From Glandiceps talaboti (taxonomy: Eukaryota > Hemichordata > Enteropneusta > Spengelidae), in NCBI RefSeq assembly GCF_964340395.1, contig NC_135566.1, positions 10,788,501 to 10,852,500 on the forward strand: 64,000 nucleotides of DNA, in the 5' to 3' direction. Shown here piece after piece: positions 37,401 to 50,001 of the stretch; within the stretch, counting starts at the first letter, position 1; the number at the start of each line of letters is the position of its first letter. Under the pieces are notes generated by a model. It saw only the letters and a program-made list of their open reading frames with translations, had not been told where the DNA came from and did no database searches. Made by a program: the position numbers and the translations under genes.

Positions 37401-40400
37401 AAAATCTGGATTTCTTTGTGTAACATGTTTTAGATACTGGTGATAATAACAAAAAAGGGGGTTTTATGGTTTTGAAGTAAATTTTTCTGAAGTTGATGGA
37501 CAGCTGGAATCCAGACAATGACTTGCATTATCAGAAGCAATGTTTTACATTATTTGTGTGTTCTTACATCATTAGGAACAAGTTGAAGCCGCCAAGAAGG
37601 ACTGGGAGCTAAGTAGATTACAGCAGCTAAAAGCTGAAGAAGAAAGGCGGGCAGAGTTGGAAGAAGATGAAGTCCTGTTTACAACGTACAGTAGAGCGGA
37701 TGCAAACAACCAGGTGCATAAACAAAAAAGGAGGAGTAAAGAAATTAGTACTAGTAGTAGTAGTAGTAGTAGTACAAGGTCTAGTCATATGACCAGGTCA
37801 GGTAGCTCTCAGAGAACTCCAGTTAGTAGTAAGCCAGACAGTGGCAAGATTAACCGATTACGGAGTGATCGTATGTCTAAATCACCGACCACTAGATCTA
37901 GTAAGGTTATCACAGAGAACGGGCCCAAGACACCGAAAGTGAGCCCACCACAATACAGAACTAGGAAAAGTAGTGATAGTGGGTATAACACTAGAAAGAG
38001 TAGTGATGGTGATTTAAACACTTCAAAGGGAAGTATCATTGACGGGCATGTCAAAACACGTTCAAGGCACAACTCTTCTAGTAATTTAGACGGCCTCAGT
38101 ACTTCCCGTAGCAGCTCCAGAGCAAGTTCACGTGCTAGCTCTCCAATCAAACAATTAGTATCACCAGACAGGCCAAGCAGACAGAGGAGGAGTTCTCGTT
38201 TGTCTTCTGATGATCTCGGAAGTAGCGGTGGTAGTAACTTATTACAGCCTTTACGTGAAGCAAAGACTAGTTGATGATAATAGAAAATTAGGTGACGTAG
38301 AGACATATATTCAGGGATAGAACAGATTGCATTTGCTAATATCAACTAACCTAGCAGGCCCTCCCTAAATAAGTCTTCAAATTCTGCATAGGGATATACC
38401 CAGAAAACTAATCATGCTGTCTAGTCTGATGAAAATTCTTCAGTGCCAATAAGCCATTATTTGTACAGTCACTTGTCATATACTGTAAAAAAAAAAAAGA
38501 CAAACTTAGGACCGCAAATTGCACAATGCGTTCTTTTTTGTAAAACTGTATAGAATCTATTTTGGCAGTATTTTGCATTTTCCAACAATGCAGTGTGAGG
38601 TTAAGAGAAAGCAAGTCAGTCAGGGATAAAGAGGAGCCATGGTTGAGATTTACTTTGTTTGGAACCAGATTTCTTTTTTATTTGTGAAGATGAGTTCCTG
38701 TGAATAAAATTTTGTCAGTGCTAAAAAAGAAAAAAAAAATGCTGTGTTCTTGAACTTTCCTATCCCACCACAAAACACCACCACCACCACCACTACCTAC
38801 CTGTGTGTGCGTGTGTCTGACGTTGTTGCATGGTCTGTATTAAAAGGATGGCATTGCTGGCAGGACCCTTTGACAGAAAAACTGTATTAAAGCATGATTC
38901 AAGACCATTTTGGTGTCAATCAAATCAAACAATTTTTGTTATTCGCTAGAGTCAGTATTTGATAAACATTTCCAATTTCCAGACATGTTTGATACAATGA
39001 AACACTTGAATCAGGCTTCTGACACATTGCATGGAACTGGGTTTGGAAATGGCATGGGCCTTTTGTTAGCTGGGACAAGTATCTAATATGTAGAATTGAA
39101 GAAGAAGAAAAAAACTACTAGTGTTGTCACTTTGACATTTTATGTTTTGTTTTCTTTTGACTGACTTGATTGGCACCAATTGTTCATGGGTTGTGTTATA
39201 ATGCACTTGTCCAGCCGTGGTTAGTCGCCTATGCCATCTCTCAAAACTACAGTGCCATGCAGTTGACGGAAGGATGCATACATAGATGGGGAGTGTATAT
39301 GTGTGTGTGTGTATGTGTGTAGAAGAGGAGGGTTGAAGAACATACATTATACTGCTATCATCCAAGGCAAGCAGTACCTGTACATTTTGAACATCCTGGT
39401 AGTAAAATTCTAGTATTCATTGAACACAAAATGACAGTATGAAAATAATACTCTGCCACTAGCTAGTCACCTATAAGTAAAGACATTTCTAGTCCAGGAA
39501 CTCGGTAAAGAAAATGTCACCTAACAGTTGAAGGCTTTGATTTACTTCCATGTTGTGTTCATTTTCGTGGCCACTTTAGTTCACTTGCATAAAAAGAACA
39601 GGCTAGCCTTGGATGGAAGTAACTTACTGTGATAAGTAATATTTGGTTTTCATCATTGTTCCCCCCTCCCCCCTTATAGTCCTACAGTGAGAAACTGTTT
39701 GATATTTCCTCATTGGTGTAAGCCCCAGGGAAATATGAACCAAGTCTGTGCATTTGGATAAACTTTTGGCCAGAGAGAAAAAATGATGCCTTGATCAATG
39801 AAAAGTCGTTTGGTAATTTCTATAGTACAGATCATGATGAACTCTGATGTGGTGTTTTCTGCAATGAAATATCAACTGGATGGCCATATTCTTTGAGTTA
39901 GTTACAGTGGATTTCAAAGTACTGTTCACTGGCCGTGTTTGATACAACCATGCAGAAATCAATAAGAAACTGAACGTACTACACTTTAATAGCAAGGTAT
40001 CAATTTATTGCTACATTTTGTCTGAATGAAATGAAATCAACGATTTAAACCAACTTACTGCAACAAGATGCAGACATGAGGTGTCAATTTGATTTCTGCA
40101 TGGTGGCACGTTAGTTCATTTCATTTAGACAAAATGTTGCAAGAAACTCTGTATTTATATAATCTTGCTATCTTAAAGTGTAGCAAGTGTAGTTTCTTAT
40201 TGGTTTCTGTGTGGTTGAAGCAGAGTACTGAGCAGTATTTTGAAATCTGCTGTAAATGAATTTAGTATTTAGTTTCAATCCATAGCCAAAGTATTATTAG
40301 GAGATGCAAAGGATTTACATGATATGCAATCTGGAGGGTATGGGAGGGGGTGAATGATGACATCTAATTTTGTATCTCGGCATATGATATGATGAATTGA

Positions 40401-50001: not shown

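Follow-up and report, generated by a model that had tools for sequence, protein, structure and literature searches.

The window, i.e. the entire stretch of 64,000 nucleotides analysed here, lies on contig C19 of an assembly of 590 Mb in 47 contigs and harbors a domino-type gene on the + strand. In the phase-checked model this gene is single and uninterrupted and comprises 43 exons between positions 10782 and 50001; every coordinate given in an earlier sequence-only reading of the locus was borne out by the model. A shared part of 31 coding exons (10782–37713, 2454 codons) ends in phase 0 and can be continued in two ways. Twelve further in-phase exons, from 40807 to 50001, would complete an A form of 3475 amino acids, the frame of which is open throughout to the stop codon at 49999–50001. 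Alternatively, 186 codons read through from the last shared exon would yield a B form of 2640 amino acids.

Shared exons and ATPase motor

The first coding exon (10782–12068, +) starts with an ATG at 10782 and encodes an EP400_N-type N-terminus (Pfam PF15790, 85.2 bits at a cut-off of 27). Exons 6 and 7 (17292–18190, +) contain a pre-HSA segment and the HSA domain (Pfam HSA, 69.8 bits). The first SNF2 ATPase lobe is encoded by exons 13–17 (22535–26408, +; Pfam SNF2-rel_dom, 296.1 bits) and the second by exons 23–27 (30951–35000, +; Pfam Helicase_C, 92.8 bits), while exons 18–22 (26770–30426, +) amount, by their lengths in the gene model, to an inter-lobe insertion of 476 amino acids. Remodellers of the INO80/SWR1 class possess a long insertion between their ATPase lobes, and the arrangement found here, an HSA domain upstream of a SNF2 ATPase that is split by such an insertion, is of the SWR1 type. 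Exons 28–31 (35332–37713, +) form the post-ATPase region, which is shared up to the branch point and resembles SRCAP (88.3 bits) much more than EP400 (at most 34.8 bits). Near the end of this region the motif TYSRADA aligns with TYTREDA of EP400.

The motor itself is closer to human SRCAP than to human EP400, and closer to SRCAP and SWR1 than to INO80 and other SNF2 families. Against the sequences of solved structures, the best stretches for the first ATPase block score 718 bits for SRCAP (query residues 342–762) and 417 bits for EP400 (284–762), while the values for the second block are 513 and 280 bits, respectively. For the 764-amino-acid motor block the best scores are 1017.7 bits for SRCAP, 564.3 for EP400, 469.1 for SWR1 and 330.1 for INO80. 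Column by column, of the 321 positions in lobe 1, 117 are shared exclusively with SRCAP and 13 exclusively with EP400, the corresponding figures for the 228 columns of lobe 2 being 73 and 11. In the helicase core, 107 of 146 columns of human SRCAP are identical to yeast SWR1.

Several further features were observed in the window. Intron 4 contains a tandem repeat (15394–15884) of about nine 54-base units with 96% matches, and exon 31 is directly preceded by an intron carrying a long (TA)n microsatellite (37096–37274). Upstream of the gene an open frame on the + strand (3848–4975) encodes 375 lysine- and serine-rich amino acids with no Pfam match, and downstream of it a fragment at 58247–58561 (+) matches the sulfotransferase family PF00685 weakly (21.2 bits, cut-off 22) and may represent an exon of an adjacent gene. 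Nothing was found with Rfam at gathering thresholds.

The two predicted 3′ ends

The branch point is the donor CAG|GTGCAT at 37713|37714 (37711–37719, +) of exon 37576–37713. It is in phase 0, and, as had been claimed, the p400-type exons from 40807 to 50001 follow in phase; the frame is continued from either acceptor, 40807 or 41904. Since both accept the phase, the 36-nt A-specific exon at 40807–40842 (+), which leads into the PMD, can be skipped with the frame kept. The intron downstream of the donor, with 3093 bp, is the longest of the gene, all others measuring at most 1545 bp. Within it, comparison of the window with itself reveals a single repeat, an inverted-repeat element some 350 bases long (39902–40255) with copies at 50801–51118, 48220–48342 and 18282–18502 that are 68–77% alike; it is probably a small DNA transposon.

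The A-specific PMD exon (41904–42057, +) was assigned by alignment with EP400, in which, by eye, its residues D, V and Y stand opposite D2259, I2260 and Y2261 of the EP400 PMD. These three residues of the human protein are described as helping to hold the acetyltransferase module, the PMD and the HSA domain together sandwiching a piece of EPC1, while SANT and HD bind TRRAP (PMC11995519). The following A-specific exons reach up to and include the SANT domain (42749–43567, +) and, further downstream, the HD region (44427–45309, +), both blocks containing TRRAP-contact residues in the EP400 alignment; the Pfam Myb/SANT models respond weakly to the A end, remaining under their cut-offs. The last block (45711–50001, +) consists of Q-rich exons with poly-Q runs in an open frame up to the stop codon at 49999–50001. 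Overall the A end scores 444 bits against human EP400, whereas SRCAP matches the shared part only. Nine of the eleven TRRAP-contact residues of EP400 (PMC11995519) are identical, the two changes being His to Lys and Ile to Val. The proposal of a p400-like long form is thereby upheld: as in an EP400-type protein, PMD, SANT and HD with the TRRAP contacts follow the motor, and EP400_N is present as well. Because motor and post-ATPase region are SRCAP-like and EP400_N and the A end are p400-like, the gene combines both types; judged by sequence similarity, it is a conserved SRCAP-like motor placed between a p400-like N-terminus and a p400-like A ending.

All eleven TRRAP-contact residues are encoded downstream of the branch point, and a B form would consequently be devoid of them. 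When the donor at 37713 is left unused, exon 31 extends into a composite terminal exon (37576–38274, +) with B-specific codons at 37714–38271 and a stop codon at 38272–38274. This open read-through of 186 codons agrees with the earlier description, as does the AATAAA at 38703–38708 (+), a consensus match that may direct polyadenylation of the B transcript. The hexamer is followed by an A-run (38723–38739) and a GT-rich stretch from 38740 onwards; taken alone it has little weight, since 14 of the 42 introns of the gene contain AATAAA.

The length of the read-through frame distinguishes this donor from the other 41, which are followed by 1–86 open codons. When the tail was shuffled 5000 times with its dinucleotide composition preserved, the frame was never open throughout. 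While the coding frame contains no stop codon across the tail, the two other + frames contain 5 and 42 and the reverse frames 13, 2 and 19, and a run of four stop codons is situated right at the tail end. These observations argue against the alternative that only the long A form is made, with the open stretch after 37713 representing a chance or relict intron frame and one protein serving both complexes. Such a scheme, which we regard as improbable, is also at variance with Drosophila, where the two isoforms likewise part after the motor, DOM-A and DOM-B being described as identical over their first 2008 residues (PMC7239659). It does draw some support from the reverse frame with only 2 stops, which is nearly open too, and from codon statistics that are not decisive. 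In whole-codon usage the coding frame of the tail scores 0.093 bits per codon, within the range of the exons and higher than any of the 25 intron pieces (−0.17 at most), but the + frame with 42 stops scores higher still (0.16), and the log-odds for synonymous codon usage of the tail are about 0.005.

The character of the encoded tail can likewise be read in favor of an A form as the sole product. Its 186 residues include 53 Ser, 38 Lys or Arg and 13 Asp or Glu and are thus basic, serine-rich and of low complexity. No Pfam domain was found in it, no match to PDB sequences, SRCAP included, at E values up to 10, and no GRP AT-hook motif. The C-terminus of SRCAP bears AT-hooks. The sequence-only reading had called the short form SRCAP-like; the conserved motor and the lack of PMD, SANT, HD and a Q-rich region bear this out, whereas the sequence of the tail does not, as it shows neither the GRP motif of AT-hooks nor similarity to the solved SRCAP sequence.

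Donor-like sites with 7 of 9 consensus positions occur within the tail at 37796, 37801, 37938 and 38008, that at 37938 being in phase. They would allow the tail to act as an alternative extension of exon 31 that is spliced from a later donor such as 37938, so that an A form with an insert would result and no separate B form. This is very unlikely, as the frame continues well past those sites to the stop cluster, which in turn is succeeded by the AATAAA, the A-run and the GT-rich stretch.

Two explanations for the read-through were discarded. A weak donor does not account for it, because the site at 37713 matches 7 of 9 consensus positions like many others, within the range of 6–9 of the remaining donors. 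An origin of the tail from a transposon was rejected as well: besides 36 short matches confined to the (AGT)n run and the edges (query positions 16–87), the tail DNA has no counterpart elsewhere in the assembly, in a search that passes over simple repeats and words of very high frequency.

Search for a second SRCAP or EP400 gene

In order to find out whether the locus is the only one of its kind, as had been proposed, the 590-Mb assembly was searched with the motor and with the p400-type C-terminus, and no second SRCAP or EP400 gene was found with either the motor-lobe or the C-terminal queries. The first ATPase block yields 68 matches, five of which are exons of the window gene (86–275 bits), whereas the best of the 63 others reaches 58.8 bits. 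Twelve loci were fetched that cover all non-window motor matches of at least 31 bits, the rest scoring at most 30.1 bits. One of them is INO80 (L021) and another CHD1 (L016); most of the others we take, from familiar motifs, to be members of other SNF2 families. A further SNF2-type ATPase among the loci (L018, G000:C9:12927000-12935000) fitted none of the familiar animal families and has one aligned stretch that crosses stop codons, perhaps at an intron.

With the motor of human EP400 as query, one window exon scores 108 bits and the twelve other loci at most 65.5 bits, and each of these twelve scores higher with the motor of the window gene than with that of EP400. The PMD-SANT-HD query gives five matches, all of them exons of the window gene. 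The HSA model detects the window gene (50 bits) and one other locus only, presumably a BRG1-type protein by its sequence. Each of these results speaks against a second SRCAP or EP400 gene that is missing from the assembly or too diverged to be recognised, in which case the window locus would simply be EP400. An incomplete assembly could nevertheless hide such a gene among its 47 contigs, and, because the search proceeds exon by exon and scores the best candidates only, a very diverged second copy is conceivable; we judge the chance of this to be slight. The single-locus state, which separate SRCAP and EP400 genes elsewhere in the genome would have refuted, is supported within this scope.

One contig of the assembly, C46 (17,211 bases; loci L046 and L047), was considered as a candidate for the mitochondrial genome, which was ruled out by its sequence: it is made up of repetitive, satellite-like sequence and of TTAGGG telomere repeats over about 1.8 kb. 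In arthropods the telomere repeat is typically TTAGG, so that the animal probably does not belong to this group.

Relation to domino and to the vertebrate genes

Taken together, the window gene is probably the sole SWR1-type (domino) remodeller gene of this animal and has two alternative 3′ ends. According to this model, transcripts of exon 31 would either be spliced from 37713 to 40807 or 41904, thereby adding the PMD, SANT, HD and Q-rich parts, or run through the donor to the stop codon at 38274 and be polyadenylated after the AATAAA at 38703, so that the B form would consist of the shared part plus the basic, serine-rich tail of 186 residues. As PMD and HSA would hold EPC1 and the SANT-HD part TRRAP, the A form may scaffold an acetyltransferase complex of the TIP60/NuA4 type. 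Without those docking surfaces, the B form may act as the motor of an H2A.Z-exchange complex of the SWR1/SRCAP type. As the branch precedes the exons for the EP400-type PMD residues, one splice decision would determine which complex the protein enters.

By analogy with the fly, both a choice between splicing and polyadenylation and a division between two complexes are plausible. Drosophila DOM-A and DOM-B are reported to arise from one gene by alternative splicing and to enter two complexes, DOM-B exchanging H2A.V and DOM-A serving a NuA4-like acetyltransferase complex (PMC7239659). As in the fly gene described there, the window locus combines a common N-terminus, HSA domain and ATPase with a long C-terminus containing SANT and poly-Q and a short one without predictable fold (PMC7239659). 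In the window gene the short end would arise by reading through the donor of the last shared exon. The division of labour between the A and B forms need not be strict, however, since in fly embryos overexpression of either Domino isoform is reported to rescue the loss of Domino (PMC8636486). The human TIP60 complex, moreover, is described as active in acetylation and in H2A.Z exchange alike (PMC11995519).

The dom orthologues of honeybee, jewel wasp, ant, flour beetle and house spider are listed with at least two C-termini each, and the authors suggest that the arrangement may be widespread, a suggestion limited to Arthropoda; they contrast the single fly gene with the gene duplication in yeast and humans (PMC7239659). 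For the mosquito orthologue four splice isoforms are predicted (PMC7142294). Among the matches listed for the open-access literature, none reports a domino locus with two C-termini from outside the arthropods. The two-ended single gene is thus known in Drosophila and suggested for arthropods, and the window gene is a further member, from a different animal than Drosophila and one with TTAGGG telomere repeats.

Compared with the human proteins, the window gene shares EP400_N, PMD, SANT, HD, the Q-rich end and the TRRAP-contact residues with EP400, and the motor and post-ATPase region with SRCAP. It differs from EP400 in that the motor of the latter has diverged, only 67 of the 146 helicase core columns being identical to yeast SWR1 as compared to 108 in the window gene. 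SRCAP, for its part, is a separate gene with a long C-terminus for which no counterpart was detected in the B tail. Human SRCAP is reported to rescue sterile dom flies (PMC7142294). With fewer columns identical to SWR1 than both SRCAP and the window gene, the motor of human EP400 appears as if it had been freed after a duplication.

Because a single domino gene can encode both endings and carries a SRCAP-like motor between p400-like ends, the locus suggests that the shared isoforms came first and that gene duplication divided them later. In its full extent this reading states that two isoforms from one SWR1-type gene are the ancestral bilaterian condition, that vertebrate SRCAP and EP400 are duplicates which divided the isoforms between them, the EP400 motor decaying afterwards, and that the switch between splicing and polyadenylation is original. 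We consider it a serious possibility, if one that falls slightly short of being probable. Were it true, the exon after the motor would have held the original switch by which H2A.Z exchange and histone acetylation were kept apart. In vertebrates two genes share what the window gene may encode alone, and an older, single-locus origin of the two remodellers becomes testable through it.
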